Source: Haematococcus lacustris (taxonomy: Eukaryota; Chlorophyta; Chlorophyceae; Chlamydomonadales; Haematococcaceae). Taken from it: a stretch of DNA of 64,000 nt. This document shows positions 28,751-63,565 of the stretch, one piece after another. A program made the position numbers and the translations under genes. The notes below the pieces were generated by a model. That model was not told the DNA's origin. It made no database searches and saw only the letters and a program-made list of their open reading frames with translations. Numbering within the stretch: the stretch's first letter is position 1; each line of letters opens with the position of its first letter. The stretch is taken from contig JASKMD010000021.1 of the NCBI GenBank assembly GCA_030144725.1, positions 1,633,768-1,697,767 on the forward strand, read 5' to 3'.

Positions 28751-30049
28751 TGCGTCACCCTGGCCACCTGGGATGCGGTGTGGGAGGTGTACCTGGACCC
28801 CAAGTGGGCACGGCAGCGGCTGAGGCTGTACGGAGCCCAGGACCGAGCGCTTGAGCAGTTCTTCAACAAGGTGAGGTTGGGTGGGTGGGTAGGTGGGAGG
28901 GAGGGAGGGTAAGGGACTGAGAGGTGGTGGGTTGGGCATGAAGTGAAAGAGTACTTGATTGTGCCATGCCTAACCGTGTGCCACCATGTCAGCCACCATG
29001 TATGTGCCTTGTGTGCATGACTGCAGTTGGAGGAGCAGATGGCGGAGCTGTCCATGAAGCGGCATGGGTGTGCCAAGCAGCTGGTGGTGTTCTTTGGCGC
29101 TGCTACTATTGGCACTGGGGGTGGGTGGGGTGCTGACGCGGTGCTGCGTGCCTGCCGCAAGGTGGTGTGCAGGCCCAGGGGCAAAGACCAGGATGGGGGC
29201 AGGGTGGTGCTTGTGGATGAGCACCGCACCAGCCGGGTCAGCTCAGCAGTGAATGGCAAGCAGCCCTGTGAGGTGGAGCTGAACACACTCAGTGCCACAA
29301 GACCTGCAGGCTGGAAGCCCCCAGCAGGGCAGGTGGAACAGCGCCTGGTGCGCCCAGCCTGGAGCCAGGAGCGTGGCCAGCCAGTGCGGGGCCTGGTGTG
29401 GTGCCCTGTAGTGGCCCCCCGCAAGCCCCCACAGGCCCCACGCAGCGGCCAGGCAGCCACACAGCCAGCAGCCTCAGAGCCAGGGCCCAGCACTCCCCCT
29501 CCAGCCAAGCGCACCAAGGCTGAGCCAGCAGCTGAGCCCACCAAGGGCAAGGGCAAGGCTGCCAAGGCAAAGCCAGCACCACAGCCAGGCAGGTGGCTGG
29601 ACAGGGACTGCAATGCAGCGTTGAACATGCAACGCATTGGGGAGAGCAGGTGGCGGCCGCTGGAGCTGTGCTACTGGCCAGACCAGGGAGCTCTGCCAGC
29701 CAAGGGCAAGGAGTACCCTGGCCTGGGCTACAAGCGGCTGCGAGACAAGCCACCCCAGGCCCAGCAGCAGCAGCAGCCTGCTGTGGCACAGTAGTGTGTG
29801 CCCCCCCTCCACTTGAAGCTGTCATCAGCTTACAATTAGTGCATGTTTTGTCATGCCAACTCTACATCATAGCCCTCGGGTCAGGCAATAGTGTAGGTGG
29901 TAGGCGGGCTCATGTGCCATGTGCACTGGGTTTACTCCACACAGCCCAATAACACTGTTTGAGCCGGATCTAGTTAGTGGCTGCTAGTGGTTGCTAGTGG
30001 CCGTTGCTAGGTCCGGCTCAAATGGAGGCCCTAGTGAGGGACAAGGGGG
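28751..30049 (+). mobile_element. Fanzor copy F1, 5'-truncated
   Basis: Nearly identical to 44187-45505 of the full copy F4, intron included, so it did not arise from spliced mRNA. Coding parts are 28751-28870 and 29027-29794 (TAG). They retain the VDEHRTSR and WLDRDCNAALNM motifs but not RuvC-I, which lies upstream of the break. The right end closes with the terminal hairpin and GAGGGACAAGGGGG. It cannot encode a complete nuclease but keeps the 3' end that would specify guide RNA. Confidence 0.85.
29795..30049 (+). ncRNA. candidate Fanzor guide-RNA region of F1
   Basis: Non-coding sequence after the stop that is conserved with the 3' ends of F2, F3, F4 and F5. The terminal hairpin has an altered, shorter inner part here. 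By analogy with TnpB and Fanzor, the guide RNA scaffold maps here; transcription is not shown. Confidence 0.4.
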
Positions 30050-30260
30050 CTGTGTTTGATTACGTGCTTTATTTTGGTGTTGCATGAGGGCTATTACTCA
30101 TGCTTTATTTTGGTGTTGCATGAGGGCTGTAGGGTTTAAAACTTGCGGGATGTGATGCGGTGGGGATGTGATGTGATGGGGACTGCTGCGTTGTTATGTA
30201 CTGCTGCAGCTATGAAGTAACAGTAGTTCGCGTCGCACCAATCTCCCCGGTCGAGGAGCA
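30050..30260. other. upstream region of gene A
   Basis: Contains a direct repeat of TGCTTTATTTTGGTGTTGCA (about 30065 and 30099), then the probable promoter of gene A. No TATA box is obvious. Confidence 0.4.
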
Positions 30261-32975
30261 ATGGAGCTTCGGGAGACGTTTCTTAGCTTAGCAGCGCCGC
30301 CCTACTCTGTGCAGGAGCAGGCTGGTGCGTACGAACGGCCGGTGTTTTCACATAGTCTAGTATAGCTGCTCGATCAAGGCTGGCTTGCGCTGCGCCCAGG
30401 AAAGTACTGTTTCCGCCTCGAATTGTCGGCGTTGTGGGCATGGCAGCAAGTGCAAGCCGCCTCAAAAGCCTCAGCGTCCGAGGAGGAGAGATGCAACGCG
30501 CAGCAGCTGTGCAGCCTGCTGTTGACAGACCCAGAAATGCTCGACGTGCTGCTGGCCCTGCACGACATCCGGGCTGCGCAGCTTGGCTTGTCATTCCCTC
30601 TGCTCCTCACCCGTCAGGGGAGGCCAGGAGATACAGGCAACAAGTGGGACGTGCCCACCCCACGTCTAACCAAGTTCTGTGTAGAGAGTGTGCAGATTGG
30701 GGAGACAGGCAATGTACGTGTCCAGCCACTGGCTTGCACAGTTGGAGCTTGCCTGGCACAATGCCACCAATGTCTCGCTTGCACCCTCTGTTGCTGTGCA
30801 GCCTTCTCCTGATCATGTCAATTCCCATGTGTGGCCCAGCCTCTGCTGCATCACCGACATCCTCCTGGCTGTAGTGCAGTCCATTGCCCTGCAGCCCCAG
30901 CCAGCCGGCCCTGCCTATGCCCCAACCACATCTATAAAGCGCAGCCCAGCGGCACGATCAAATAGCTCCTGCCAGCTGCCCCCTGGGTTCGTGCGCTGCA
31001 GTGCCGGCTTGAACCTTAGTCTGCGCCTGGCAACTGGCCAGGCCGTCCAGGCAAGGCAGCAGGTCTCAGCCCACCAGGCAGCCATGGACCGGCTGCACCC
31101 CGTGCTGGGGCCCTGGCTGCGAGGGCAGTGCATGGCGCATAGCCTGCTCCTGGCAGCCGGGCACCCGCAGTGGGAGGCGCAGCGGTCAGAGGCTGTGTGC
31201 AACCTGGTGATGCTGGTGGAGACCCTAGCCAGGGACACTGAGCTGAGGCGGTACACTGGCGAGGACATAAAGCCTGTCTCCAACATTACAGGATCAGCAA
31301 TCATGCAGTTTGGCGAACGGCTTCGGAACATAAAGAAGAGCCCCATGACCACGGGCTGGCCTGGGCCATTGCCAGCCAGCACCCACTGTGGCGGCAATGG
31401 CAGCAGGCAGGGCAGCGGCAGCACAGGGGCAGAGCTGGACCTGCGGGTAGTGAACAGCTACGCCCACATCTGCCACGCCCTCAACAGCCTGGTGCACCAG
31501 CAGCCACAGCCCCTGGAGCGCATGAGGCTGGCTAGCACTGTGACCCTAGGTAAGGACAGGCAGCAGTGGAGAGTGGGAAGGTGGGCGGGCGGGCGGGCGG
31601 GCGGGCGGGCGGGCGGGCGGGTGGGCGGGTGGGAGGGAGAGAGGGTGGGCAGGTGGGCGGGCTATGCATAACCCCAGCAAGTAGCTGGCGGTCTGTTGTC
31701 AGTGCTTGCTCTGCCCCTCTCTGACTCACTCCCTGACCCTGCTTGACCTGCGTGTTGAATGCAGGGCGGGGTGAGCTGGCGATCAGTCGCTGTATTGACA
31801 GCATAGGCGTGGCCACGACACTGCTGTCCAGGGAGTGGTTTGCCCTGAACCGCCTGGGCTTCATCCCCTACAAGTTTCCCAAAGCCAGCTGCAGTGACAG
31901 CAGCCCTGACTCAGCGGCCCCAGAAGCCAGCGGCGCCTGCCCCTCCTGCCATAAGCCCAGCTGCCGTCAAGACTGCCTCGGCGCTCTGCTGCCTGTCATG
32001 TTCCCAGTCCTGCACCGGGCTGTGACTGTGACTGCTGGCAGTGCGGTGCTGCTGCGCTTCACCTTGTGGGCCACACTCCACCAGCCCCCTGACAAGAGGT
32101 GGATCAGTGCCGTCCACGCCTGCTTCCTGCAGCTGAACAGACTGGGCAACCTCAGCTGCCACCTGCTGACATGCCTCGACAACAACTTGGTGCTGGGCGG
32201 GCGGCAAGGCCAGGCCCTGCGGCGGCTCGACCTCATGGCCTTGACGGCGTCAACCTACTCACAAGTCACGTACCAGAAGCTGGTGGAGCCACAGGCCCTG
32301 AAGATGCTGGTGCCAAACCTGGCATGGCCGAAGCACCCAGCCATGCCTACCTTCATGGACCTGGGCTCCTCAGGGAGTTGGGGCCTGGTGTCCTCCCGGT
32401 CATGGGACAGCATCTTGGAACGGTGGGCGGAGCAGGGGGCAGCAGGCAGGCAATCGATGCAGGTGTGCTTGGAGGTGGTACGCGCCACTGAGCTGCTGCT
32501 GCAGGTAGGCCTGGCTGGCCGAGGGCGTGTGAGGCATGTTGAAGTGCAGCGCATGTTGCTGAGCCAGACCTGCCGGGTACTGTGCCATGAACTCTGCCTC
32601 GGCAAGGGTGTTGGCCCACAGCATACTTTCTTGCACAAGGTACACCGTGGCTGCAAAATAGCTCGCCAAAACATGCACCATGTCCCCCCATGCATGACTG
32701 CCTTGTTTGCCCAGATGGCCCTATCAGCGCTTCCCTTCAAAGCCCAGCAGGCAACACACTACCACGCATAGGCAGAATGTAAGGAGCTTTACTAGGGGTG
32801 GTGTTTTGAGTGTATGGAGTTATGTTTCCATGCACATGGCATGGGGCGCCTACCACTTACACTATTGCCTGGGCCCTCTGACAGGGCTACAGTCTAGAGT
32901 TGGCATGACAAACATGCACTAATTGTAAGCTGATAACAGCTCAAAGGGAGGGGGCACACACTACTGTGCCCCAGC

Positions 32976-33030
<55 letters not shown>

Positions 33031-34387
33031 GCCTTGGGGGGCTTGTCTCGCAGCCGCTTGCAGCCCAGGCCTGGGTATTCCTTGCCCCTGGCTGGCAGAA
33101 CAGCCTAGTCTGACCACCAGCACAGCTCCAGTGGGCGCCACCTGCTCTCCCCAATGCGTTGCATGTTCAATGCCGTATTGCAGTCCCTGTCTACCCACCT
33201 GCCTGGCTGTGGTGCCGGCTTGGCTTTGGCAGCCTAGCCCTTGCCCTTGACTTTGCCCTTGGTGGGCTGGGTGGGCTCGGCTGCCTGCTCAGCTTTGGTG
33301 CGCCTGCTGCGCTTGGCTGGCGGGGGAGAGCTGGGCCCTGGCTCTAAGGCTGCTGGCTGTGTTGCCCGCTGGCTGCTGCATGGGGCCTGTGGGGGCTGCC
33401 CCTACCAGCCATACCCACAAACTTCTTTCTTCTTGCAGAGAAGCATGCCATTGCATGCTTCCCCTACTATTGCATGCCAATGGCCATATCTTTGCCTGAG
33501 GCCACGCTGTACCACCTGTATGAGGGCACCTCCCATCTGTCCACCTGCCGTGTTGCTTGCAGTCCTTGGAGTGTGTGTGCTCCGTATGGGCCTACATCCT
33601 CACCGTGGTCAGCCCCAGCCAGCAGGAAGCCATCAGGAAGGAAGACAGGTCTGACTCAGAGGAGTGGAGCCTCGTGGCGATGCGCATGCTGGTGCTCAGC
33701 GTTCAGCTGCTGCAGGACAAAGCTGTGGTGGGCCCTGCTGGCCTGGCTGCCAAGCCTGCTAGCTGGCTGCCGCCAGGGCAGCAGCTCATCAGAGGGTGGT
33801 GTGAACGGCTGGCCTCCAGGGTGTGCCAGGTGGCTGACATGACAAAGCTGCTCACTTCTCCCAACTCAGGGTTCAACATCTCAAGGGGGGGGGTGTGTCT
33901 CGGCGCCCTGGTGCAGCATGACCCCATGGAGTCGGATGCAGAGGACGCCCTGGCCTTGCTCATCGTCACCCTGGGCCTTTCCGTGCCGCTGATCACTGTG
34001 CTGAAGCTGGCAGACGAGGCTGACGACGACCCTGACGACCCTGATGACCCTTACGACGAGCTCGCAGCAGCACTGCAGGAGTTGAAGGGGCTGCTGAGCC
34101 AAGTGCCAGCACACCAGGTGCAGGGGTGGCGGGCCACTGTGCAAGGCACCGCCAGCGAGGACCTCCTGCAGCAGGCCCTGGCGGCAGCAGATCTCAAGCT
34201 GACGCTGCCTCACCTCACAGCGGTGGCCCCCAAGGGCAAGGTGGCGACAGCAGGTAGGGCAGCAGCAGCAGTTGCGGCAGCAGCAAAGGCCGAGCAGGAC
34301 CGGGAGAACAAGCACAGGCTAACGGAGCTCATAGCAGGCATGGGAAAATGCCTGGCCCTGGATGCCCGGGAAGAGGAAGGGGACTAA
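30261..34387 (+). CDS. gene A, uncharacterised; tandem paralogue of gene B
   Basis: Five exons: 30261-30324, 30400-30713, 30802-31549, 31765-32504 and 33563-34387 (TAA), phases consistent throughout, about 895 aa. I do not recognise the family. It is helical and Leu/Ala-rich with no signal peptide or obvious membrane segment. Conserved with gene B are the start (LAAPPY), LCSLLLTDPE, ALHDIRAAQL, MDRLHPVLGPWLRGQCMA, LDLRVVNSYAHICHAL, a possible metal site C-x2-C-x4-C-x3-C (near 31940-31976) and LLSQVPAHQVQGW near the end. An acidic DDPDD run lies near 34020. Exon 2 is 314 nt in both genes and intron positions are shared, so this is a recent tandem duplication of a real gene. Intron 3 has a GGGC microsatellite (31583-31640); intron 4 contains the Fanzor relic F2. 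Confidence 0.75.
32828..33400 (-). mobile_element. Fanzor copy F2, old right-end fragment
   Basis: Minus-strand match to the last ~570 bp of Fanzor (3' non-coding end, then the C-terminal coding region with RuvC-III), more diverged than the other copies and lacking the outer hairpin. The glutamine tract near the C-terminus has grown to 17 CTG units (32979-33029), against 4-5 elsewhere. It lies in the last intron of gene A (32505-33562). Confidence 0.8.
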
Positions 34388-35416
34388 TAAGATGCGAAGC
34401 AGTACAGGTGCCGACGTAACGGTACGCGCACACAGTTGTTCTTTGTTTTTTGTTGTCGCTCTGGAAACGCTGATCCGCCAGCCTGGTATGGTTGCTTAAC
34501 GGTATGGCTGCTCGAAGGCCTGCATGGTGGGAGTTTCAAAAAATGCAGGTGCCCCACCTGCTGCTGCGCCTAGTATGGAACCAGCAGCGTGACCAGCCAG
34601 TGCGGGGCCTGATGTGCTGCCCGGTACTGGTCTTACATCACATCAGCCACACACCCTGCCACAGCCCCGAGGCAGCCAGGCAGCCCCACAGCCATGAACC
34701 TCAGAGCCTGGACCCACATTTCCCCGCCAGCCAACTGCAGCAAACGCAGCTAGGCTGAGCAGGCAGCCGAACCCGTCCAGCCCACCAAGGGCAAAGCCAG
34801 GGCTGCTCAGCTCAGGCCACTAGGCACCGCAGCCAGGCTGGTGGGTAGACAGGGGCTGCAATGCAGCGCCGACCATGTAGTGCATTAGGAAGAGCTAGTG
34901 GCGCCCGCTGGAGCTGTGCGGGCGGCCCCCTCCTTGTTGGGAAGCTGGTGCTAGTGGATAGTTTCCTGCACCACCCGGGTCAGCAGGGCACACAGCAGAG
35001 CACAGCACATAGATCATTGCAGGCAAAGAGACTAGAAACAACACGACCACAGAAAGTACTCGACTCGAAACCTGGTGGGATCTCAAACCTGATCGCACGG
35101 GCTGTTGCTCGGCAAGACACAATTATACCTGATACAGGGAACATTGCTAGATTAACACCTCGCTAAGTGCTCTAGATGAGTGCTCTAGATGAGTGCCTTC
35201 GTGTTTGATTTCCATGAGTGGTGTGAGAGGGTTGACCTCTTCGTGCTGACCCTTTCGCGCTGTTCATGCCTATGCGCACTTACAGATCAAGACAGTCGAC
35301 TTTTGACTGGGCGGAACAATGTAGGTTGGCAATCCTCGACGACTCGAACCGGAACACCAAACTTCTACTCCACCCGACACCCGTACGCGCAGTTGTGATA
35401 CGTGTGCACAGCGGAG
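34388..35416. other. intergenic region between genes A and B
   Basis: Holds the Fanzor relic at 34540-35010 and the promoter of gene B. A short direct repeat GTGCTCTAGATGA occurs at about 35168 and 35182. No other gene seen. Confidence 0.5.
34540..35010 (+). mobile_element. very degenerate Fanzor fragment
   Basis: Plus-strand remnants in Fanzor order: CCAGCCAGTGCGGGGCCTG (VRGL segment), an Ala/Pro/Lys linker, GACAGGGGCTGCAATGCAGC (the RDCNAA site, with the Asp codon GAC changed to GGC), then GGAGCTGTGC. A piece like the DEHRTSR coding region follows out of order at about 34957-35000. Frames are broken. Confidence 0.6.
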
Positions 35417-38400
35417 ATGCGCGAGGCTCTAGAGCGCTTAGCTGCGCCCCCGTACACTGACCAAGAAAAACCCGGTGCGTAGTCAAGTGTCCATGGCCTG
35501 CGCACACGCCCTCTAGTGAATTGAGCTTATGGCGCACTACTAGTGTGTGCTACTGCAGCAAGCTATGTCGGTCGCCTCGAGTTGATGGCGACGTGGGCTT
35601 GGCAGATAGTCAAGGCTGCCTCTAAGTTCTCAGCAACCGCGGAGGACATTTACAAAGCACAGGGGCTTTGCAGCCTGCTGCTGACAGACCCTGAAGCCCT
35701 GGACATACTATTGGCCCTGCATGACATCCGAGCGGCGCAGCTTCTGTTGCCATTTTCTCCCAAGGCCACCAAGCCGCGGAGAGCAGCCGCACCTTGCAGC
35801 AAGTGGGAAGTGCCAGCTGTGCGCATGTTCAGGTTCTGCAGGGATAGTCTGCTGGCCAGAGGCACCATCGAGGTAGGCAGTGTAGTAGCCATGTGTGCTT
35901 GTATGCTCATTTCCCCTACTCATTGCCCCTATTCATTGCTGTGCAGGTTGATGCAGAATTTGTAATGACTGCAGCATGGCCCAGCCTGTGCCGCATCACC
36001 GACATTTTGGTAGCTGTGCTGCAGTCTATCCCACTCCAAGATCAGCCACCTCTCTCAGACGCAGCTGCTCAGCCCAGCCCTCCAGCCCAGCCCAGCAGCC
36101 CCTGCCAGCTGGCCCCTGGGTTTGTGCGCTGCAGTGCCGGCCTCAATCTTAGCCTGCGCCTGGCAGCTGCCTACGTCCTTGAAGCCAGGATGGTAGACCA
36201 CTCCCACCTGGCAGCCATGGACCGGCTGCACCCTGTGCTGGGGCCCTGGCTGCGAGGGCAGTGCATGGCGCAGAGCCTGCTCCTGGCAGCCGGTCACCCG
36301 CAGTGGGAGGCGCAGCGGGCAGAGGCTGTGTGCAACCTGCTGACCCTGGTGCGGACCCTAGCCCTTGATGTTGATAAGTGGGACTACACAGGAGAAGACA
36401 TCTGCGAACCTGTCTCCTGCAAAGGGCCAGGCCAAGCTAAGCGTTTGCTCAACAGCCTGCTCAGCAGCCCCATGACCACAGGCTGGCCAGGGCCGCTGCC
36501 AGCAGCCCAAGTGGCAGAGCAGCTACTAACCCAGGTCAGCAAAAGCAGTGGCATGGGCGGCAAGGGCAATCAGAATGGCAGCAGGCAGGGCAGCGGCAGC
36601 ACAGGGGCACCGCTTGACTTGCGAGTGGTGAACAGCTACGCCCACATCTGCCACGCCCTCAGCAGCCTGGTGCTGCAGCAGCCACAGCCCCTGGAGCGCT
36701 TGAAGCTGTTCAGCGCCACCACCCCAGGTGAGGCCAGGGAGGATCAGGGCAGCAGTGGTGAGGCCTGCCTGTGGTGAGGCGAGGCGGGATGAGGGCGGCA
36801 GTGTAGAGGGGAGGCCGGGCAGCATGCGGACAGAGGAAGTAGAAGCCTGCATGAGGCCATTGCCAGGGCCGGAGAAGCTTGTCAGTGCATTGCATCAGAG
36901 GAGTGCTGCCAGGTGCCAAGTTAGTACAATCAAGTCAGGTGCCGCTGCTGCTGCCGCTGCACCAAGCTGAAAAGATGCAGACCGAGTTGCTGAACACCCA
37001 GCTGAGAAGTTGCATTATTGCAAATGCTGTTGCGCAACTTGCTGAGCATGCAATGCTCTGACAAGCTGCCTTGTGCCCTACTCTGCGCTGGTGGTGGTGC
37101 TGCTGCTGCTGCTGCTGATGATGATGAGGAAGATGCAACCAGTACCTGCTTTGCTGCATACACTCACTGGTACTGTGTACTAGAGAATACTGGTAGCTGC
37201 TGTAGGTGACAGCTCTGTGCATCAATGTGCACAGGACCAAATGCCACAGCGAGTGTAGTCCTACTCAATCACAACATCATTCTATCGTTTGTTGTGCCCA
37301 TCTGCAGGTCAGGGCGTACCCACACCTGGTCACTGCATTGAATGCCTCTTTGTGGTCCGGGCCATGATGCTGAGGGAGCACCGCATTGGGAGGAATCTAA
37401 AGGCTCTGCCATTCACCTCCTCCTCTACTGGCGGTCACCCAGGCAGCTCAGCCTCGAGCCACCCTCGCCGCCCCTGCACCTGTTGCCTCACTCCAGGCTG
37501 CCAGGGGGGCTGCAGTGATACCCTGCTGCCCGCCGTGCTGCCCATGCTGCACCGGGCTGTGGCAGTGGCCAGTGGCACTGCAGTGCTGTTGCGCCTACTC
37601 CTTTGGGTCGCCACGCAGCAGGCACCAGATGCGGATTGCATTGAGGGCATCCATGAGTGTGAGATCCAGCTCAGTGACCTGACTGCTCGCTGCTGCAAGC
37701 TGCTGGGCAACATGCACCGACATCAGCTGGCACGCCCCTTGTCAAGCCCGCAAGCAAGCAGTGTGGCAAGCATCCACCCTCATCCACCACCAGCAGCAGC
37801 GCTGCGTCTGGCCCTGCAGCGCCTGAGCCTGGACGCCATGTTTTCAACAGCCTACAGCTACACCACAATGTTGCTGGTGGAGGAGCCTGATGCACTGACA
37901 GATTCAGTGCCAGAGCTTGCCTGGCCAAAGCAGCCGGTGCTGCACATGATGCTGGGCATGAGGTCCAGGCCTAGGGAGGGCGTGGAGTTTGGCGCGATGA
38001 AGTTCTTTGAAGGCATGCTGGACGAGGGGCTGGCTGTGAGCAGGCGTGGGCCACAAGCAATCTTGGGCGTGCTGCGCAGCACTGAGGCGATGGTGCAGGT
38101 GAGATGGGTGCACAAGGTCAGGTGCACAGCACGCAACCCTCACCTCCATTCGTGCAGCTTTGTGGGAAGGCTTGGTACCATGATGCTTGAGTATGGCTAT
38201 GCATGGTGCTCATCACATTGACTGATTACGTGCCTCTACCGCAAAATCTGTCAGTAAATGCTAGTATTCTGACTGCTATTTTTCTATGGCAAATCAATAT
38301 CCAATAGAAGGAAAGGAGGAGTGGAGCTCAGGACTTCATGACCAATTGACTTTGAGCCTTGGGAACCAATAAACACTTTGATTTTGCGGGGGTCTGGGAA

Positions 38401-41400
38401 CTAAAGGAGTTCACTGTACTATCATGTCATACACTTTTGTTGCTATTACTTGCTATGACTACTGTTATACTATTTCCCCTTGCTCCAGTCTTGCTCCCAT
38501 GGGTGGATGCTCTGCTCTCAGTGCTCTTAGTTTCTCAGGTCACCCTCTCAACCCCCTTGTCCCTCACTAGGGCCTCCATTTGAGCCGGATCAGAAGTACC
38601 TACTAGCAGCCACTAGCAACCACTAGCAGCCACTAACTAGATCCGGCTCAAACAGTATTATTGGGCTGTGTGGAGTAAACCCAGTGCACATGGCACATGA
38701 GCCCGCCTACCACCTACACTATTGCCTGACCCGAGGGCTATGATGTAGAGTTGGCATGACAAAACATGCACTAATTGTAAGCTGATGACAGCTTCAAGTG
38801 GGGGGGGGCACACACTACTGTGCCACAGCAGGCTGCTGCTGCTGCTGGGCCTGGGGTGGCTTGTCTCGCAGCCGCTTGTAGCCCAGGCCAGGGTACTCCT
38901 TGCCCTTGGCTGGCAGAGCTCCCTGGTCTGGCCAGTAGCACAGTTCCAGCGGCCGCCACCTGCTCTCTCCAATCCGCTGCATGTTCAATGCTGCATTGCA
39001 GTCCCTGTCCAGCCACCTGCCTGGCTGTGGTGCTGGCTTTGCCTTGGCAGCCTTGCCCTTGCCCTTGCCCTTGGTGGGCTCAGCTGCCGGCTTGCTGCGC
39101 TTGGCTGGAGGGGGAGTGCTGGGCCCTGGCTCTGAGGCTGCTGGCTGTGTGGCTGCCTGGCCGCTGCGTGGGGCCTGTGGGGGCTTACGGGGGGCCACTA
39201 CAGGGCACCACACCAGGCCCCGCACTGGCTGGCCATGCTCCTGGCTCCAGGCTGGGCGCACCAGGCGCTGTTCCACCTGCCCTGCTGGGGGCTTCCAGTC
39301 TGCAGGCCTTGTGGCACTGAGTTTGTTCAGCTGCCTCTCACAGGGCTGCTGACCATTCACTGCTGAGCTGACCCGGCTGGTGCGGTGCTCATCCACGAGC
39401 ACCACCCTGCCCCGCAGCTGGCCTGCGCCCCTGGGCCTGCACACCACCTTGCGGCAAGCACGCAACACCGCGTCAGCACCCCACCCACCCCTGGTGCCAA
39501 TGGTAGCAGCGCCAAAGAACACCACCAGCTGCTTGGCACACCCATGCCGCTTCATATCACTAAAAACAGTGAAGCGATGAAGCGGAGCTGGGAGTGGGTT
39601 TCAGCCCGCAGCCGGAGGTGCTCCCGCAGCTTGCGCCTGGTCTTCTTGCGGCCGCGCAGCACTGCGCCCTCGGGGACCTTGATGACCTGCAGCCAAGCGA
39701 GGTTGCCATTTTGACAGGCCAAGACACAAGTCGGGGTCAACACAAACAGTGCGGCTACACATAAGGCGGGGACGGACCCACACCTGACGTCGATGCGTGG
39801 TCCAGCCATCTCGACGATCCTGTCGTTGCTTGCCTTGGGCGGAACGAGACACTGCGATGGAACCAACAGGAGCGACGGGTTATCTCACAGCGCGTAACTC
39901 ACGTCTAGGGCTCACGTCACGGCTGGGGACACGAACCTTTATGTTTCTTGTCGCTACCCTTGCGCTTCTTCTTAGCCATCACGCGATGCGCAGTGCGACG
40001 GGCGGTGGCCTTTTCTAGCAATTTGAGTTTCCCGTGAAAAATGCACGGTTGTGTGAAAATACACAAGATAGTCAAGGCAGCCTCCAAGGCCTCAGCAACC
40101 GTAGGTCCAAGGTCACCCAACCGTAGGTCCAAGGTCACCCTCTCAGCTCGACCGCCTGTCGGCTGTTTAGAGGGTCTTTCGCAGCCTGACCTGCTCGTTT
40201 TGCCCATTTTGACCTGCTCATCTTGCTATATGCCGGGGTAAAGGGTTAGGGTTAGGGTCTGTCAAGGGAAGGCTGGGCTGCGCCCAGGGTGTCATACCCC
40301 CACTGCCTGGAGCCAGCTGGCAGGTCAGCCAGCTGCTGCCTTGCCTCCCCCTACAGTGTTCACAGCCTGTTCACACGCTGCAACTGGGCCACGCTGCCAC
40401 ACACAGCCAGGGACAACCAGCCGTCACTGATTACCACAACTGCATGCAGCCATCCCATGGGTCTGTGTGACCTCTACTTCAGCGTAAGCGTACTTCAGCT
40501 AGCTACACACAGGGTAGGGTACTGCTCACGCATACGCAGCATCATAGAACCCTTACACTGTAGCCCTCCCACGCACGCCGCATGGGCGCCTTGCACCTAC
40601 ACTACCTGGTGGCTTTACCTACACCACCTGACCCTGCACCACACCCTGCCCCGCATCCTGCACCGCACCCTGCACCACACCTGCATCTACACCACCTGAC
40701 CCTGTGTCAGGATTCTAGGATGGACGTGACTGGCAGGCACTAGTACAAGCTGCTGACAGGTCTAAGACGGCCACCTAGGGGTGATATTGCCAGCATGCTG
40801 ACTGTGTGATTGTGTGGTGCATGCAGGCTTTTGAGGTGAGCTTGGCAGTTCGAGTTTACAGGCTTGAGAACGGAATCTACATGGACCATGATTCTGACGT
40901 GGAGTATGTCTCCGACTGTGATGATGACTCTTGTGAGACTGAGGACGAGGATGATGAAATGGATGACGACTGTGAGAGTGGAGGAGGTGGCAAGGCAGAC
41001 GCCTGGTACCTACTGCCTCTACGCCTGCTGGTGCTCAGCGTTCAGCTGCTGCAGGACCCAGCCGTGGTGGGGCCCGCTGGCCTGTCCGCCAAACCTGCTG
41101 CCTGGCTGCCAGCAGGGCAGCAGCTGGTCAAGGACTGGTGTGAACGGTTAGATGAGGCAGCTGCTGATTTTGCAGAACGAATGAGCCTGCAGTACCACCC
41201 CAAACCTGGCCTGGCCCTGTCCCGGGCTGTGTTCATTCTCCCAGCCCTGGTGCAGCACCCCCCTATGGAGCCTGCTGCAGAGCAAGCCCTAGCCTCGCTG
41301 ATGCTCACCCTGGGCCTTGCCATCCCGCTGCTCATGGTGCTGAGGCTCAAGGGCACCTCAAGGAAGCGCAGCCCCAAGCTGCGAGCAGCACTGAAGCAGC

Positions 41401-41678
41401 TGAAGGAGCTGCTCAGCCAGGTTCCAGCACACCAGGTGCAGGGGTGGATGGACATTTTGGCAGATTCTGAGGCTGCAAGCCTGCTCTTCGACGTGCTGGT
41501 TGATGCAGCGCATGATCTGTGTGTGCCTCACCTGGCAGCGGCGGAGATCAGAGAGGAGGGCGAGGCAGCAGAGGGAGGCGCAGAAGTGAGTTGCAATGAA
41601 GCCCGCCAGGCCCAGCAAAGCCTGGTGGAGCTGATGGCATGCTTGGGGCTGTGTCTGAACTGCCTGAACAGTGTCTGA
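35417..41678 (+). CDS. gene B, uncharacterised; tandem paralogue of gene A
   Basis: Exons 35417-35474, 35559-35872, 35947-36727, 37308-38098 and 40827-41678 (TGA), about 930 aa, with phases as in gene A. Family unknown. Shared blocks: LAAPPY start, LCSLLLTDPE, MDRLHPVLGPWLRGQCMA, LDLRVVNSYAHICHAL, the cysteine cluster (CTCCLTPGCQGGC) and LLSQVPAHQVQGW. The last exon opens with an acidic run of about 30 residues (DDDSCETEDEDDEMDDD) absent from gene A. The final intron (2.7 kb) contains Fanzor F3 and a fragment resembling exon 2 of this family at 40066-40102. The last exon could therefore belong to a partly deleted third paralogue rather than to B. Confidence 0.7.
38552..40064 (-). mobile_element. 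Fanzor copy F3, internally deleted, both ends present
   Basis: Minus strand. The left end (GTGTATTTTCACACAA at 40064) and right end (hairpin, then GAGGGACAAGGGGG at 38552) match F4. Exons 1-3 begin intact (39979-39937, 39851-39784, 39686 downward; NLS-like MAKKKRKG start). Sequence equivalent to about 42237-44485 of F4 is then missing, removing the linker and RuvC-I and breaking the frame at about 39556. The C-terminal half follows (39555-38815). This is a MITE-like non-autonomous derivative. Confidence 0.85.
40066..40102 (+). pseudogene. fragment of a third A/B paralogue (exon 2 part)
   Basis: Encodes KIVKAASKASAT, matching QIVKAASKFSAT of gene B (from about 35605) and VQAASKASAS of gene A. 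It begins exactly at the F3 left end, so F3 entered or rearranged a third copy. A doubled ~20-bp unit (GTAGGTCCAAGGTCACC) follows at 40100-40140. Confidence 0.6.
40103..40826. other. non-coding remainder of the gene B/C interval
   Basis: Contains two TTAGGG units at about 40245-40256 and a CACC-rich low-complexity stretch at 40600-40690. No complete gene seen. Confidence 0.4.
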
Positions 41679-41819
41679 ACTGTGTGTGTTGCGCTGTGGG
41701 TGTTGCGTACGACCAAGGCTGTAACAGAGCACTAGTGTATTTTCACACAAGCGTGTATTTTTCACGGGAAACCCAAATTGCTAGAAAAGGCCACCGCCCG
41801 TCGCACTGCGCATCGCGTG

Positions 41820-44800
41820 ATGGGTAAGAAGAAGCGGAAGGGTAGCGACAAGAAACGTAAAGGTTCGTGTCCCCAGCCGTGACGTGAGCCCTAGACGTGA
41901 GTTACGCGCTGTGAGATAACTCGTCGCTCCTGTTGGTTCCATCGCAGTGTCTCGTTCCGCCCAAGGCAAGCAACGACAGGATCGTCGAGATGGCTGGACC
42001 ACCCGTCGACGTCAGGTGTGGGTCCGTCCCCGCCTTATGTGTAGCCGCACTGTTTGTGTTGACCCCGCCTTGTGTCTTGGCCTGTCAAAATGGCAACCTC
42101 GCTTGGCTGCAGGTCATCAAGGTCCCCGAGGGCGCAGTGCTGCGCGGCTGCAAGAAGACGAGGCGCAAGCTGCGGGAGCACCTCCGGCTGCGGGCTGAAA
42201 TCCACTCCCAGCTCCGCTTGATTGCGTCGCTGTTTGTATTGCGCATTTTCTTGACATGCCTGGTTGGCTACCCCTCCCCGGGATATGCCAGCGCCCCTCA
42301 GCCTCCAGCCGTGCAGCCCCCCCAACCCCCTGATGCTCCCCCCCTACCCCCACTCCCCCCACGGGCCCCTGCCCAGCCTGCCCAGCCTGCCCAGCCTGCC
42401 AGCATGGAGTGTGACACCGACTCTGACTCCGAGTCAGACTGTGGCTCAGAGCCAGAGCCACAGTCTGACTCGGAGTCAGAGTCAGAACCTGAGCCAGTCA
42501 CGAACCCCCCCCAAAGGCGCTGCAGCGCCCGCCTGGCAGCCCTTGCACCCGCAGCACCCACTGGCCCTCCCTTGCCCCTTGACTGCGAGGACCCCCTGAT
42601 GCTGAGGCAGCTCAAGGACTTCTGCAAGTTCTTCGCCAACCCAAACTTCAAGACATGCTACAACCAGCTGCAGCGGCGCCTTGTGCGCAACCGCCACCCC
42701 ATGCTCATGCCAGCCTTTGAGGACCCCAGCAACCAGGCGCTTGTGGCCAAGCTGCAGGAGCTAGGCAGCATCAAACTGACGGCTTTCCACAACACCAGCG
42801 ACGCACACTCCATGCAGCTGGCGGTGGCCATGCAGCAGCACTATGCCAACCCAGGCAAGTGATGGTGGTGACTAGACCCTAGACTTGGACCTGGACCTGA
42901 CCTGACCTGACCTTATACCTGACCTTATACCTGACCTGACCTAGACCTGACCTGACCTTATACCTGACCTGACCTGACCTGACCTGACCTGACCCTGACC
43001 CTGACCCTGACCTGACCTGACCTGACCTGACCTGACCTGACCTGACCTGACCTGACCTGACCTGACCTGACCTGACCTGACCTGACCCTGACCCTGACCC
43101 TGACCCTGACCTGACCCTGACCCTGACCCTGACCCTGACCTGCAGAGCGCATTGTCTAGCTGTACGCCAAGGCAGCCAGGGCCAAGCTAGGCTGGAGCGG
43201 GGAGGAGGCGCAGCTGTTCATCAGGATGGCGTGTGGGTATGGCATCAACGCCCACAGCTCGGAGCTGAAGGCCGCCACCCTGGACAAGGGCCATGTGGCG
43301 GACCTGATAGAGGAGGCCAACACGCACCGCCGCCTACTGGGCATGAAGAAGGAAGGCTCCCTGCAGGACACCCTGCCCCTGCCCTGCCGCATGCGCCATG
43401 CAGTGCATGTGTGCCGGTGGCTAGAGCGGTGGCAGCAGCCTCTCACACCCCCTGTGCCAGGGCAGCCAAAGCGCGGCAAGAGGCGTGGGGTTGGTCCCCG
43501 GACCCTGACCTGCCCACCCCCCTTCACCCTGACCCCCATGGCCAGGGTGGGGGTGCACTTCATCAAGGTGGACAGCAGGGTGCTGCATGGGGTGTGCAGG
43601 CAGCTGGGCCTGACCAAGGAAACCCGGGAAGCTTTCACCTCCCAGCCGGCACTGAGCCAGCACTGGGCCAGGTGGTTAAACACAAACAAGCTTCGCAACA
43701 AGGAGTTTCATTTCGAGAGGTTGGTGGACACAGATGGTGTCAGCGTGTGCGTGCACTTCACGCGCCCCCTTCCCCCTCCTCCAGCCCCGCCTCCAGCTGC
43801 CAGCAGCAGCAGCAGCAGCAGCCGCCCAAGTGCAGCAGCAGCAGCGGCTCATGCGGTGGGGCTCCCCCACATAGGCAGGGGCATAGCTGAGATGCGTGAG
43901 TTTGTGTTTGACCCAGACACACAGATTGGGGTGGGCATCGACCCTGGCGTCACCCAGGCAGTCAGCGCAGCCTCTGGGGTGTGGGATCCAGCAACAGGCC
44001 AGCTCATGGCAGACCAGCTGCGCCGGTGGAAGCTGACCAAGGGCGAGGTGAAGCATGCCAGCGGCCTGAACAATGCCCGCCGTGACACAGAGCGGTGGCT
44101 AGCACCGATCAAGCCCCACCTCCAGCACCTGGCAGCAGCCAGCTCAGCCGGCACCTCCCTGGAGGCCAACCTGAAGCACATCACCGTCACCCTGGCCACC
44201 TGGGATGCGGTGTGGGAGGTGTACCTGGACCCCAAGTGGGCACGGCAGCGGCTGAGGCTGTACGGAGCCCAGGACCGGGCGCTGGAGCAGTTCTTCAACA
44301 AGGTGAGGTTGGGTGGGTGGGTAGGTGGGAGGGAGGGAGGGTAAGGGACTGAGAGGTGGTGGGTTGGGCATGAAGTGAGAGAGTACTTGACTGTGCCATG
44401 CCTACCCGTGTGCCACCATGTCAGCCACCATGTGTGTGCCTTGTGTGCATGGCTGCAGTTGGAGGAGCAGATGGCGGAGCTGTCCATGAAGCGGCATGGG
44501 TGTGCCAAGCAGCTGGTGGTGTTCTTTGGCGCTGCTACTATTGGCACTGGGGGTGGGTGGGGTGCTGACGCGGTGCTGCGTGCCTGCCGCACGGTGGTGT
44601 GTAGGCCCAGGGGCAAAGACCAGGATGGGGGCAGGGTGGTGCTTGTGGATGAGCACCGCACCAGCCGGGTCAGCTCAGCAGTGAATGGCAAGCAGCCCTG
44701 TGAGGTGGAGCTGAACACACTCAGTGCCACAAGACCCGCAGGCTGGAAGCCACCAGCAGGGCAGGTGGAAGAGCGCCTGGTGCGGCCAGCCTGGAGCCAG

Positions 44801-45241
44801 GAGCGTGGCCAGCCAGTGCGGGGCCTGGTGTGGTGCCCGGTAGTGGCCCCCCGCAGGCCCCCACAGGCCCCACGCAGCGGCCAGGCAGCCACACAGCCAG
44901 CAGCCTCAGAGCCAGGGCCCAGCACACCCCAGCCAGCCAAGCGCAGCAAGCGCACCAAGGCTGAGCCAGGGGCAGCTGAGCCCACCAAGGGCAAGGGCAA
45001 GGGCAAGGCTGCCAAGGCAAAGCCAGCACCACAGCCAGGCAGGTGGCTGGACAGGGACTGCAATACAGCATTGAACATGCAGCGGATTGGGGAGAGCAGG
45101 TGGCGGCCGCTGGAGCTGTGCTACTGGCCAGACCAGGGAGCTCTGCCAGCCAAGGGCAAGGAGTACCCTGGCCTGGGCTACAAGCGGCTGCGAGACAAGC
45201 CACCCCAGGCCCAGCAGCAGCAGCCTGCTGTGGCACAGTAG
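41820..45241 (+). pseudogene. Fanzor (eukaryotic TnpB-like RNA-guided nuclease), one in-frame stop
   Basis: Five exons with matching phases: 41820-41862, 41948-42015, 42113-42854, 43146-44302 and 44459-45241 (TAG), 930 codons. Exon 1 encodes a nuclear localisation signal (MGKKKRKGSDKKRK). Exon 3 has Pro-rich and Ser/Asp/Glu-rich linkers, then a helical segment. RuvC-I is VGIDPGVTQ (Asp ~550); VDEHRTSR (Glu ~735) fits the displaced acidic residue typical of Fanzors; RuvC-III is DRDCNAALNM (Asp ~870). The intron after 42854 is GC-AG (AG/GCAAGT) and full of CCTGA repeats. A single TAG at 43157-43159 (codon ~289) interrupts an otherwise open frame. Zinc-ribbon cysteines after TSR are largely missing. 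Fanzors cut DNA guided by an RNA made from the element's 3' end. Family call firm; activity doubtful. Confidence 0.85.
42876..43143. repeat. CCTGA/CCCTGA minisatellite in Fanzor intron
   Basis: Tandem ACCTG and ACCCTG units filling the GC-AG intron of F4 right up to its acceptor. Confidence 0.95.
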
Positions 45242-45505
45242 TGTGTGCCCCCCCCCCACTTGAAGCTGTCATCAGCTTACAATTAGTGCATGTTTTGTCA
45301 TGCCAACTCTACATCATAGCCCTCGGGTCAGGCAATAGTGTAGGTGGTAGGCGGGCTCATGTGCCATGTGCACTGGGTTTACTCCACATAGCCCAATAAC
45401 ACTGTTTGAGCCGGATCTAGTTAGTGGCTGCTAGTGGCTGGTAGTGGCTGCTAGTAGGTACTTCTGATCCGGCTCAAATGGAGGCCCTAGTGAGGGACAA
45501 GGGGG
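45242..45505 (+). ncRNA. candidate Fanzor guide (omega-like) RNA region with terminal hairpin
   Basis: About 260 bp after the stop, nearly identical in F1, F3 and F5. It ends in an inverted repeat, TTTGAGCCGGATC (45405-45417) with GATCCGGCTCAAA (45466-45478), enclosing AGTGGCTGCT-type repeats, then GAGGGACAAGGGGG. In TnpB and Fanzor systems the guide RNA scaffold comes from this end, and the bases just beyond it act as guide. No transcript evidence. Confidence 0.5.
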
Positions 45506-48022
45506 CTGTGTCTGAACTGCACCATCATGAGTAGCTCAGCATGCTGACATCATGCAGTGGCTGGGAGTGTGTAATGTGGTTCGTAAAGTTAGTAATTATG
45601 TGACGCTCTCCTCAAGCACCCTCCTCCTCCTCCTCCTCCTCCACCTCCTCTGACTGCCCTGTCTTGTTTGGCTATTACACAGCATGGTGGTTTTGGGTCT
45701 GCTGGCAGCAGCCATGGCAGCTGAGACCTTGCTGCCAGTGGTCAGTCACAGGTCTGGTGGTCCCTGGCGGGGTCGGCAGACTCTCACACAGGCATTGTCA
45801 ACCTTGGACACTACGCTGGACAGCAATGCACAGCAAGCATGAAGCTTCACAGCAGCCAGTCACAGGTTCTCTGTGGCCATGTGCACAATGGATGGGGACA
45901 TGCACACTCTTGTAGGGTGTTGAATGTGTGACATTGCATTTGAGTTGTTTTGTTTCTATTTTTTAGTGTGTGAAACGTCACCCTATAGGATGATGATGGC
46001 TTGCACCGCTGGGACCGCCAGACAACAGGCTGCTCGGCCGCCCTCCCTCTCTAGGGTCCGGGTCTTTCTGTCACGCACTTGGCTAGGGGCTAGGGAGCAT
46101 CTGATGTACGTTCATGTGCTTGTTACAGACGCGGGTTGTAACATGTTGGCGAGACCCCGGGTTCCAATCCTGACTCCATAACACAACGATGTAAAATGTG
46201 ACATTACACGGATTCGTACGCTACCTACTAGGTGCACAAATAAAGGTACAGATGGACTCTTTACGAAGGTATGTAAGTTATGTGGTTTTGGACAGTCCTC
46301 GCAAGCTCCGGCTATTCCCTGAACGAACCATGCAAAAATACAGCTGAAATTCAGCATGTCTTTAAGATATGACCCCATCAAGCATGATGGAATATGATGA
46401 AATATAATTAAGCCAAAACTCGCAAAACCCCGTAACCTCATTGCCGTGGTCTCAACTTAGTTTCAACCATGGTCTCAATCGTGCTTTAATTTGTAGGAGA
46501 GGAGAGGAACGTTGCTAACTGCCACCGAGAGTGATACTGGTATCGAGGACGTCAAACCCTCTGTGCACTCGGGGTTCCCAGGTGGGTGAGTGTGGCGATC
46601 TGCCACATTATCCTCTTGACTACAGACCCGGTCATATCACATCTTAAGGCCATCATATTTAGTCATATGACCAATTCCTCAGCAAGTCATATGATCGGTC
46701 GCGCCCTATGTCCTTCACTAAGGTAAATCCTCACTTAGGTTTCCTCGATGTCCGCGGGGCACACAGCGTGGATATGCAAATGAGGCTTTTGAGTAGAGAA
46801 ATTACATGCAACACACGGGTGCTGTGGTCAGCGAACAGCTATCGCTCTGCTCTGCTCCCTTTTTGTGACCCCATGTAAGTTACCACTATGGTTTTGGACA
46901 GTCCTCGCAAGCTCCGGCTGTTCCCTGAACGAACAATGAAAAAAATTCAGTGGAAACGATACACCGAGTGACCTGTGCGAAGTGTAAGGCGTCAGAGTTT
47001 ACAGCTGTCATTACACTCTTTAAGCGAGGTTTAACTTGCATGCACAATCTGTGCGATGTGTAGGGCGCCACAGACTATAACGGTGTTTACAACTCTAAAA
47101 CTTCTCTGTTTACTTGCTTGCATGCACAGGACCACTCTGGAAAAACTGTCCCTCCATCGCCAAGACAAAAGCGTAACCCAGAACACACTCTCTGCAAAAA
47201 ACGCATCCTTCACCGCAAGTGCCCAACACGAACCTCTCAACACCACCTGAGAGCAGTCACCTGCTGCCGTGTTGCCATGAATGATATAATTCACACGGCT
47301 CAGCCGGCTGTTCACCTCAGCAGACACCCATCACGCGACTCTGAATAACCTCAAACACACGGGCCCATGACCAAGGCACCTCCACAAATGTGCATCGCAT
47401 AGAGAAGCAAGCGATGTGCAGCAACATGCCAAGCAGTTTGCCGATTTCCGTCCTCGTCAACCTGTATGCAATATAAAGTACAAACTACAATCCAGACAGT
47501 GAGCAAAGCCCGGGCCACGCCCTTTCACCACTACTACAGCTCTGCACACCACTGACCCTCAGGCCCCAGCCTCCTTGGCAGTCTTTACCCCTTGCCACCC
47601 ACAGCTGCCCCTCAAGCTGGACCCCCTCAGAGGCCCGTGAGCACACCATGCCAGTCCCCGCCAAGAAGCCTGCTCGGGGCAGCTGGCAAGCACGCTGTCA
47701 TCACCATCATCCTGGCCTGCCTACTGGGCGCTGGGCGGCTGCCACTGTGCACATGATGCCCGCAATGCCACGACTGGCCCTGTCAGTCCCTTGACTCACC
47801 CGCCTCAGCTCCCTCTGGCACCACCAACCCACCAAGGCAGCCAGCCACCAACCCACCAAGCCAGCCAGCCAGCCAGCCACCAACCCACCAAGCCAGCCAC
47901 CGAGCCAGCCAACCAGCCAGCCAGCCAGGCTTCTGCTCTCACACCACAGGCTCACCCACCCTCTCCACCCTCCAGCTCTGCCTCATACAACTCCACTGCA
48001 TGCCCTTCATGCTGCCCTCTCC
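45506..48022. other. intergenic region between F4 and CruP
   Basis: No convincing gene. Contents: a CTC microsatellite near 45620; a ~50-bp direct repeat (GGTTTTGGACAGTCCTCGCA...) at about 46281 and 46891; an AT-richer part 46180-47470; and CCAGC/CAACCAGC repeats at 47815-47935 that probably lie in or near the CruP 3' UTR. Confidence 0.5.
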
Positions 48023-60680: not shown

Positions 60681-60839
60681 GTGAGTGGCTATCCCTCTGC
60701 AAGTATGTGGCACCGCTTAACATCTGGCATGCCTTTTGTGCTGCTGCAGGATTATTGGTTTGACCCTTCCCCTTTGCCACCACCACCTCCTAGGCCGTCG
60801 TCGCACCTTGCCCCACTCCCTATCCTACCTTGCAGCCTG

Positions 60840-60930
60840 GAGCAACCTCCTCCTTCCCTCCCTCCTTCCCTCCCTCCTTCCCTCCCTCCCACACGCCCTT
60901 TCTCACGCCCTCCCTCACGCCCTCCCCCCC
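60840..60930. repeat. CCCTCCTT pyrimidine microsatellite
   Basis: Repeated CTCCCTCCTTCC followed by CACGCCCTCC units. Confidence 0.85.
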
Positions 60931-62204: not shown

Positions 62205-62830
62205 CAGCAAGACCCTGTAAAATGATCAGCAGGACCCTGTAAAAACTGCCATCAGAACCCTGCACAGGGTCGCCAGGACCCTGCGCCGGGTCACCAGGAC
62301 CCTGCGCAGGGTCCTCAGAACCCTGCAAATGGTCAGCAGGACCCTGTAAAAACTGCCATCAGAACCCTGCACAGGGTCGCCAGGACCCTGCGCCGGGTCA
62401 CCAGGACCCTGCGCAGGGTCCTCAGAACCCTGCAAATGGTCAGCAGGACCCTGTAAAAACTGCCATCAGAACCCTGCACAGGGTCGCCAGGACCCTGCGC
62501 CGGGTCACCAGGACCCTGCGCAGGGTCCTCAGAACCCTGCAAATGGTCAGCAGGACCCTGTAAAAACTGCCATCAGAACCCTGCACAGGGTCGCCAGGAC
62601 CCTGCGCCGGGTCACCAGGACCCTGCGCAGGGTCACCAGGACCCTGCAAATGGTCAGCAGGACCCTGTAAAAACTGCCATCAGAACCCTGCACAGGGTCG
62701 CCAGGACCCTGCGCCGGGTCACCAGGACCCTGCGCAGGGTCACCAGGACCCTGCAAATGGTCGTCAGGACCCTGCAAATGACCGATGCGCTAGGACCCTG
62801 CGCAGGGTCATCAAAACCCTGCGCAGGGTT
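62205..62830. repeat. 107-bp tandem repeat built on the GGACCCTGCGCAGGGTCC motif
   Basis: Five units with a 107-bp period (starts near 62229, 62336, 62443, 62550, 62657). Each contains AACCCTGCACAGGGT, GACCCTGCGCCGGGTC and GACCCTGCGCAGGGTC plus CTGTAAAAACTGCCATC. Same motif family as the 57-60 kb arrays. Confidence 0.93.
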
Positions 62831-62996
62831 TTTTCGGATTTCAAATAGTTATAACATCGCAGCAACTTGGAGTTTTTCAATGATTACAACGGCGATGAGT
62901 CGGCCTTTCCTGGGGCTATCTGCGGTACGTCTCCCGGGAGAAATGATGTAGGCGACTTCCGGCCTTAATCGGCGCGAGTGGTGTCGTGCCTGGCAG
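62831..62996. other. unassigned spacer
   Basis: Unique sequence between the 107-bp array and Fanzor F5. Nothing recognised. Confidence 0.4.
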
Positions 62997-63565
62997 CCCC
63001 CTTGTCCCTCACTAGGGCCTCCATTTGAGCCGGATCAGAAGTACCTACTAGCAGCCACTACCAGCCACTAGCAGCCACTAACTAAATCCGGCTCAAACAG
63101 TGTTATTGGGCTGTGTGGAGTAAACCCAGTGCACATGGCACATGAGCCCGCCTACCACCTACACTATTGCCTGACCCGAGGGCTATGATGTAGAGTTGGC
63201 ATGACAAAACATGCACTAATTGTAAGCTGATGACAGCTTCAAGTGGGGGGGGGGCACACACTATTGTGCCCCAGCAGGCTGCTGCTGCTCCTGGGCCTGG
63301 GGTGGCTTGTCTCGCAGCCGCTTGTAGCCCAGGCCAGGGTACTCCTTGCCCTTGGCTGGCAGAGCTCCCTGGTCTGGCCAGTAGCACAGCTCCAGCGGCC
63401 GCCACCTGCTCTCCCCAATCCGCTGCATGTTCAATGCTGCATTGCAGTCCCTGTCCAGCCACCTGCCTGGCTGTGGTGCTGGCTTTGCCTTGGCAGCCTT
63501 GCCCTTGCCCTTGCCCTTGGTGCCCTTGGTTGCCCTTGCCCTTGGTGCCCTTGCCCTTGCCCTTG
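62997..63565 (-). mobile_element. Fanzor copy F5, right-end fragment
   Basis: Minus strand. Carries the terminal CCCCCTTGTCCCTCAC edge (plus-strand view), the full hairpin, the conserved 3' non-coding region and the last ~110 codons including WLDRDCNAALNM. Homology stops in an expanded GGGCAAGGGCAA (Lys/Gly) tract at about 63510-63570. The guide-RNA end is complete; the nuclease is not. Confidence 0.85.

Follow-up and report, generated by a model that had tools for sequence, protein, structure and literature searches.

A multiplied family of likely Fanzor1-type elements lacking the zinc finger in the green alga Haematococcus lacustris

Copies at the locus

The window analyzed here is a stretch of 64,000 nucleotides from the green alga Haematococcus lacustris (bases 1633768 to 1697767 of contig C100, in a genome of 307.9 Mb on 597 contigs). 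It contains six copies or remnants of an element whose protein is likely a Fanzor1-type, TnpB-like RuvC nuclease, RNA guided by analogy with the rest of that family. An earlier note, made from the letters of this DNA alone, had placed at least six Fanzor-like sequences in one locus, and blastn of the longest copy, F4, against the window recovers the six listed there at levels far above chance (all E ≤ 3.2e-56). The repeats in the window are real, and they lie as follows.

28753..30049, + strand: F1, 95.4% identical to F4; 5′ truncated, right end intact
32831..33396, - strand: F2, 78.6% identical to F4; truncated at both ends
34561..34919, + strand: relic of the F4 protein, 73% DNA identity; 3′ end absent
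38552..40064, - strand: F3, internally deleted, right end intact
41735..45505, + strand: F4, longest copy (core), exact right end
62997..63581, - strand: F5, 94.9% identical to F4; 5′ truncated, right end intact

F3 is 96% identical to F4 over the left ~510 bp and 93.7% over the right part, with F4 positions 42242 to 44485 missing. The same last base (...GGGACAAGGGGG, downstream of a terminal hairpin) is shared by F1, F3, F4, and F5. All six copies had been credited with one protein and one 3′ end; the common protein stands, but the complete 3′ end is confined to these four, being absent from the relic and from F2, which ends about 130 bp short of the common right end. Truncated, deleted, or stopped as they are, the window copies are all dead.

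Structure of the longest copy

The F4 gene was modeled with five exons, and the three motifs reported earlier, GIDPG, DEHRTSR, and RDCNAALN, are present in that order, the last in the form RDCNxALN (RDCNTALN in F4). The insertion runs left of the core at 41735, through a variable leader and a target duplication, out to 41649; at its right it ends in ...GGGACAAGGGGG, followed by CTG.

41649..41663, + strand: target duplication, left copy CTGTGTCTGAACTGC, preceded by GGGG
41664..41734, + strand: variable 5′ leader; 42 bp common with copy L025 and 26 to 34 bp with L022, L035, L037, and L037b
41820..41862, + strand: predicted exon 1, with basic start MGKKKRKGSDKKRK
41948..42015, + strand: predicted exon 2
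42113..42858, + strand: exon 3 as far as its frame stays open; includes the family's presumed donor, which has no GT in F4
43160..44302, + strand: exon 4 (RuvC-I), with an in-frame TAG directly upstream at 43157
43940..43942, + strand: RuvC-I Asp codon (DPG), read off the sequence
44303..44458, + strand: intron 4, kept in 21 of 21 spanning matches, one of them a segmental duplicate
44459..45241, + strand: exon 5 (RuvC-II, low-complexity insert at the zinc-finger place, RuvC-III)
44651..44653, + strand: displaced RuvC-II Glu codon (DEHRTSR)
45056..45058, + strand: RuvC-III Asp codon (DRDCN)
45242..45505, + strand: structured conserved 3′ end, candidate omega-RNA scaffold reaching the right boundary; the fold of 45242 to 45503 has -111.3 kcal/mol and z -4.23
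45405..45478, + strand: terminal hairpin TTTGAGCCGGATC/GATCCGGCTCAAA, 13 bp, perfect in F4, 27 bp from the right end
45506..45520, + strand: target duplication, right copy CTGTGTCTGAACTGC

By our own reading, the exon 1 start MGKKKRKGSDKKRK may resemble a nuclear localization signal; a similar basic start is common to several relatives, some of which begin MAKKKRKGSDKKHK. F4 cannot be called nearly intact, as it had been, given the in-frame TAG at 43157 and the loss of GT at the presumed exon 3 donor, a site inferred from the protein models of relatives. Position 43157 reads TAG in 1 of 12 pattern matches (F4 itself) and AAG in the other 11, and GT is present at the donor in the three other copies matching the search pattern. 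This breakage near the border of exons 3 and 4 is not shared by the copies compared. A GACCT minisatellite occupies 42888 to 43142, in the third intron region of the element, and has expanded to ~1.5 kb or more in locus L038.

Copies across the genome and selection on the gene

A protein search with the F4 product yielded 695 proteins at E ≤ 1e-3 among 7991 scored, the best 120 of which are all from H. lacustris, as are the best 120 of 244 in a second protein search. At the DNA level, 6393 places were found at first look; the 40 that were scored all have E = 0 and identities of 91 to 100%, and there was one weaker match in addition. Thirty-nine other genome copies are 91 to 97% identical to F4 over ~1.1 kb.

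Purifying selection acts on each of the five coding segments that were tested. The ratios of nonsynonymous to synonymous substitution rates are 0.37, 0.35, 0.31, 0.28, and 0.22 (11 to 22 copies per segment), as against 0.86 to 2.29 in ten out-of-frame controls. The proposal that the family was recently active fits both this selection and the similarity of the 39 genome copies. Elsewhere in the genome there are relatives in which the three motifs stand at the expected distances, and each motif occurs once, so spaced, in 34 of 120 gene models. Public QJQ45 protein models, P0044 among them, join Fanzor copies to reverse transcriptase, kinase, histone, and other domains and look chimeric.

Insertion sites and element ends

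Ends were examined in 37 copies. Four come from the window; of the other 33, found in the rest of the genome, 30 were chosen because they resemble F4 and 3 are neighbors of these. Two fetched insertions recur with their flanks at different places of one scaffold (L028/L029 and L169/L174) and are segmental or assembly duplicates; L029 and L174 were dropped before counting. Seven copies whose left part was cut by the fetched stretch (L021, L167, L170, L172, L175, L178, and L179) contributed right flanks but did not enter the tally of duplications. The left copy was looked for over no more than 320 bp, a range that shrank to 44 bp in L165 and to about 206 bp in L166.

Target duplications of 12 to 16 bp occur in 20 of the 37 copies, 19 of them exact and that of F3 with one mismatch (C/T at the first base), compared with none of at least 12 bp in 1332 mismatched pairs; under different settings, a previous run had given 14 of 23 copies versus 1 of 506 mismatched pairs. 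The left duplication copy starts with CTG in 20 of 20 cases, with G at -2 in 19 and GG directly before it in 13. The right flank starts with CTG in 36 of the 37 copies, the exception being F3, which has TTG there and CTG in its left copy.

38537..38551, - strand: F3 target duplication, right copy TTGAGAGGGTGACCT
40132..40146, - strand: F3 target duplication, left copy CTGAGAGGGTGACCT

Where duplications were found, the element has inserted at G-N/CTG (mostly GG/CTG) and duplicated 12 to 16 bp.

Across the copies the right end is fixed (pattern CCCTAGTGAGGGACAAGGGGG) and the left end is variable. Four simple 5′-truncated copies, L023, L027, L034, and L034b, abut the duplication directly (gaps of 1, -1, -3, and -3), and a fifth, L023b, joins it after 60 bp. 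Copies that have the 5′ region carry leaders of 50 to 297 bp, except L180 (7 bp), and those of L028, L169, and L176 contain a piece of the 5′ region itself. Leaders are shared to graded extents (F4 and L025, 42 bp; F4 and L037, 32 bp; F4 and L022, 27 bp; L024 and L176, 51 bp), as serial addition of upstream sequence would leave them. Introns are kept in all 43 spans (23 sources, one of them a segmental duplicate). Ten of the 14 joints of internal deletions are clean, and nine of these ten are not GT-AG. No A-run was seen at the right ends of the examined copies.

Covariation in the 3′ end is suggestive only. Among the 14 copies that passed the length filter, 1089 cells of the predicted guide RNA are paired and 8 broken, and there are 16 extra pair types, as against 3 to 6 in slid controls; no two-sided change was seen in the 3′ end, and one slid control had two. 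A search of the window from 28 to 64 kb with Rfam at gathering scores gave nothing.

Motifs of the protein

The molecular fingerprints of Fanzors are a DPG in RuvC-I and a catalytic Glu that stands six residues ahead of the place of the zinc finger; TnpB has instead a D-hydrophobic-G motif and a Glu ~50 residues before the finger (PMC10711439). Both fingerprints are found in the H. lacustris protein. In family A, to which the window copies belong, an alignment of 37 relatives shows no variation at D491, P492, G493, E676, or D806 (P0042 numbering); the DPG is that of GIDPG in F4, and DEHRTSRV-S reads as the invariant Glu, six residues, and the first Cys position. The upstream strand, VVFFGA, appears from our reading of the alignment to lack the canonical Glu. 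The motifs also follow the expected order and spacing, D491 and E676 being 185 residues apart in P0042, and the Fanzor/TnpB motif D-X(125,275)-[TS][TS]xx ... RD (PMC3627910) is present as D491, T679, and R805 D806. By motif the relatives form three families, A, B (GVDPGVTQAIKA ... RDTNPCLNFQRIGES), and C (RDCNAALNLQRAGES). The five invariant residues are kept in at least 90% of 47 relatives once a second family, 42 to 51% identical to P0040, is added.

Among Pfam families, PF07282 is the one to which most members, 24 of the 37 relatives, show a weak match (best E 0.0029). Of seven further proteins, P0009 (27.5 bits) and P0086 (27.0 bits) lie just above the cut-off of 26.3; both are gene models with multiple copies of the motif. 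Several other matches were given no weight: from ncbifam, PRK00423 (TFIIB; 15 of 37, best E 1.7e-6, unexplained), TIGR01765 (putative transposase; 5 of 37, best 0.027), and three adhesin models of the MSCRAMM type (10 of 37 for each); from Pfam, Actino_peptide (6 of 37) and AF-4 (2 of 37, best 0.00053). Since profile and structure evidence is weak, the Fanzor identification rests on the ordered motifs, their spacing, and the anatomy of the element.

How the element may spread, and other explanations

We consider it probable that these copies make up one H. lacustris transposable-element family, whose sole recognized gene is of Fanzor1 type and which multiplies by DNA copying that begins at the right end. 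Copying would proceed as in the one-ended transposition proposed for Chlamydomonas Fanzor1/Helitron2 elements, and read-through or early stopping at the left would produce the added leaders, 5′ truncations, and internal deletions. The 3′ untranslated region, ending at the element boundary, could serve as the scaffold of a guide RNA, with the flank that starts CTG as the guide; in characterized Fanzors the 3′ part of the RNA is the element flank and DNA is cut beside a short motif (PMC10432273). The nuclease would cut empty copies of the site, so that repair from the filled copy is favored, as proposed for TnpB. Intron retention, deletion joints, duplications, and leaders favor copying as DNA from the right end, yet the same facts are compatible with the copying of unspliced RNA. 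Retroposition of mRNA as the main route is rejected in view of intron retention and the deletion joints.

A number of results weigh against this interpretation, several of them bearing on the protein. F4 alone matches no TnpB or Fanzor profile significantly, the search that the earlier note had proposed giving 12.5 bits (E 0.17) for the last exon against PF07282. The solved Fanzors are not matched by sequence, even by profiles of 37 and 47 relatives, whose matches at E 2.4 to 2.9 are unrelated proteins. Profile comparison with 60 viral TnpB reading frames, drawn from 80 of at least 120 motif-scan stretches and selected for the RDxN motif, finds similarity confined to the RDxN stretch, with P 0.0055 and a probability of 6.7% against P 0.039 for the reversed control, a weak comparison given the low diversity of the family alignment (Neff, the effective number of sequences, 1.67); a scan of the viral contigs with the family profile gave no match. 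AlphaFold2 models based on 37 and 47 relatives have mean predicted local distance difference test scores of 36.2 and 34.5 (low confidence); the order of strands and helices in the second is compatible with an RNase H-like fold, but at a confidence too low for evidence. In none of 228 motif instances (197 of 236 proteins) does the zinc finger retain its first CxxC. As to the insertions, the copies examined were mostly chosen as the most F4-like, no duplication of at least 12 bp was seen in 17 of the 37, and among the clean deletion joints that of L032 can be read as GT-AG at the cost of two mismatches, while a GC-AG reading of L024 is poorer than its best join. Finally, 14 stretches over 12 Helitron matches (most with ~1.5 kb of flank) share no end with F4, there being no 5′ match and a best 3′ match of 29 bp (E 0.012), and the insertion site differs from that of the Chlamydomonas elements, which insert after TTTT or T-rich tetranucleotides and not at GG/CTG (PMC3627910).

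Helitron-like genes themselves are present in the genome, with 18 matches to Helitron_like_N, seven of them strong (L009 to L015, L041; 155 to 180 bits) and with open frames of up to 344 amino acids. The Helitron link is an analogy, because no end common with F4 was found in the stretches read.

The zinc finger deserves separate weighing. A C4 finger is stated to be strictly conserved in Fanzor/TnpB by PMC3627910 and is given for "many" TnpBs and Fanzors only by PMC10711439. The H. lacustris family has no C4 finger between RuvC-II and RuvC-III, despite the retention of all three catalytic acids. CxxC of any kind occurs in 0 of 153 Glu-to-RD segments. The first zinc-finger Cys position is Ser in 219 of the 228 instances and the second is Val in 214; in our alignment, the second pair has come down to one Cys (WC), with the low-complexity insert after it. 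That the finger is missing from families only 42 to 51% identical points to an old, shared loss. The earlier assignment to Fanzor/TnpB is supported by the fingerprint; the zinc finger expected with the motif is gone, and the refuting condition set in the earlier note, a lack of significant profile matches, is not cleanly escaped by F4. The family is filed as Fanzor by its fingerprint and called a variant because the finger is given for "many" members only (PMC10711439).

A serious, though unlikely, alternative is that the Fanzor is a passenger of a retrotransposon of the long interspersed nuclear element (LINE) type, inserted by target-primed reverse transcription at GG/CTG from the 3′ end. 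The tight 12- to 16-bp duplications and the fixed 3′ end agree with it, and the truncated copies L023, L027, L034, and L034b join the duplication directly, as noted above. The genome also has reverse transcriptase genes (P0044 carries PF00078, L1-like by our own reading), and L032 supplies one clean joint in ten that fits GT-AG. The remaining nine joints do not, however, and the complete retention of introns, with 0 losses, is also at odds with a LINE, as are right ends without an A-run. No LINE with an end of the type hairpin...GGGACAAGGGGG is known here, although a genome-wide search for one was not made. Ordinary decay, in which a dead passenger protein lost its finger and was spread by segmental duplication, is very improbable: it would account for the broken window copies and for the two fetched insertions that occur twice, but not for purifying selection measured against out-of-frame controls, for different target duplications at 20 insertions, or for a zinc-finger change that is uniform, unlike random decay. 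It is hardly credible that the protein is an unrelated non-Fanzor with look-alike motifs. Weak profile scores, the missing finger, and low-confidence folds would suit that explanation, but the three motifs stand in order and spacing, the Glu sits precisely where a displaced Glu should be with respect to the first Cys, now lost, RDxN is as in the TnpB frames (which were selected for that motif), and the element context is that of the Chlamydomonas elements CRe-1, CRe-2, and CRe-3.

A bolder reading, which we regard as improbable, has the Fanzor itself set the insertion: GG would be the target-adjacent motif, RuvC would cut 12 to 16 nt beyond it, and the duplication would equal the distance from motif to cut. 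Reported distances are 14 to 17 nt for GtFz1 and, for SpuFz1, 16 to 17 nt on the non-target strand and 20 to 21 nt on the target strand (PMC10432273). In Chlamydomonas, duplications occur at about 70, 57, and 10% of loci in three Fanzor-bearing families and in 1 of 200 copies of a relative, Helitron-1N1_CRe (PMC3627910). Against a role of the Fanzor in setting the insertion, new targets need not match the guide of the donor beyond CTG. If it were true, a Fanzor without a zinc finger would itself act in the insertion step, in addition to preserving the donor site.

Neighboring sequence and earlier descriptions

The Fanzor copies sit between and within diverged tandem copies of another gene (30366 to 34387, 35525 to 38221, and 40785 to 41678; 76 to 87% identical over five aligned stretches), five reading frames of which gave no family above cut-off in a Pfam scan. 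The left F4 duplication falls within the open reading frame ending at 41678, the last of these copies, and reading onward from the right duplication gives, by our own reading, a putative alternative C terminus for the interrupted gene. An 18-bp palindromic unit, GGTCTACAGTACTGTAGA, is repeated ~171 times in a satellite at 23281 to 26397, with a short array of like kind at 28507 to 28610 beside F1. Between 57222 and 62778, a 21-bp palindromic repeat around GACCCTGCGCAGGGTCCT forms several arrays, one of them with a 107-bp higher-order unit.

The published H. lacustris genome comprises 30,575 genes and 50.8% transposable elements (PMC10400597); the word Helitron is absent from its main text, and Fanzor was not looked for there. 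None of Fanzor, TnpB, and Helitron occurs in the main text of the second genome paper (PMC7617258). A full-text search of the open-access literature for Fanzor with Haematococcus gave two records, the work listed being that on the Auxenochlorella genome, with the two names in separate passages. No prior description of an F4-type family was found in that literature, Repbase and most subscription journals being outside the search.

Relation to known systems

The closest described elements are CRe-1, CRe-2, and CRe-3 of Chlamydomonas reinhardtii, Fanzor1-coding non-autonomous Helitron2 elements (Bao and Jurka 2013, PMC3627910), which are compared here by their description. Like them, the H. lacustris element is found in a green alga, has a Fanzor1 gene with introns, intact 3′ ends, and frequent 5′ truncation and internal deletion, and shows variable target duplications (about 7 to 19 bp in CRe, 12 to 16 in H. 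lacustris) and extra 5′ sequence at some ends. The combination of a fixed 3′ end, 5′ truncation, and variable target duplications that characterizes the CRe type is found in H. lacustris. A hairpin lies near the 3′ end of the H. lacustris element; hairpins on both ends are given for the Helitron2 group. The CRe elements have ends in common with a Helitron, none of which was found for F4 in the 14 stretches over 12 Helitron matches, and the finger called strictly conserved in the CRe paper is absent.

With SpuFz1, GtFz1, and other tested Fanzors, the family shares the order D, E, D and a Glu just before the TNB/zinc-finger part (PMC10432273, PMC11423790). The NUC (TNB) domain of SpuFz1 has a CCCC zinc finger, of which the H. 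lacustris family, by our alignment, keeps one Cys (WC) of four before its low-complexity insert, and the third catalytic residue is N in GtFz1 but D in H. lacustris. With bacterial TnpB (PF07282 and the 60 viral-contig frames) it shares RDxNAAxN and [TS][TS]xx before the zinc-finger place, but it differs in having DPG in place of D-hydrophobic-G and a displaced Glu in place of one ~50 residues before the finger (PMC10711439).

What is likely new here is a Fanzor line that has greatly multiplied, has lost its zinc finger, and inserts at a sharply defined site, in a kind of element that was itself already known; the evidence partly supports a heavily multiplied, zinc-finger-less Fanzor1 clade with such a site. 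Hundreds of H. lacustris entries now labeled "hypothetical protein" would be transposon copies or chimeras with them. A multiplied Fanzor lineage in one culturable alga bears on the role of Fanzor in transposition: the crisp GG/CTG, 12- to 16-bp signature, together with selected catalytic residues, offers many natural insertions from which the mechanism may be read, and the lineage would serve as a test of whether a Fanzor can dispense with its zinc finger.

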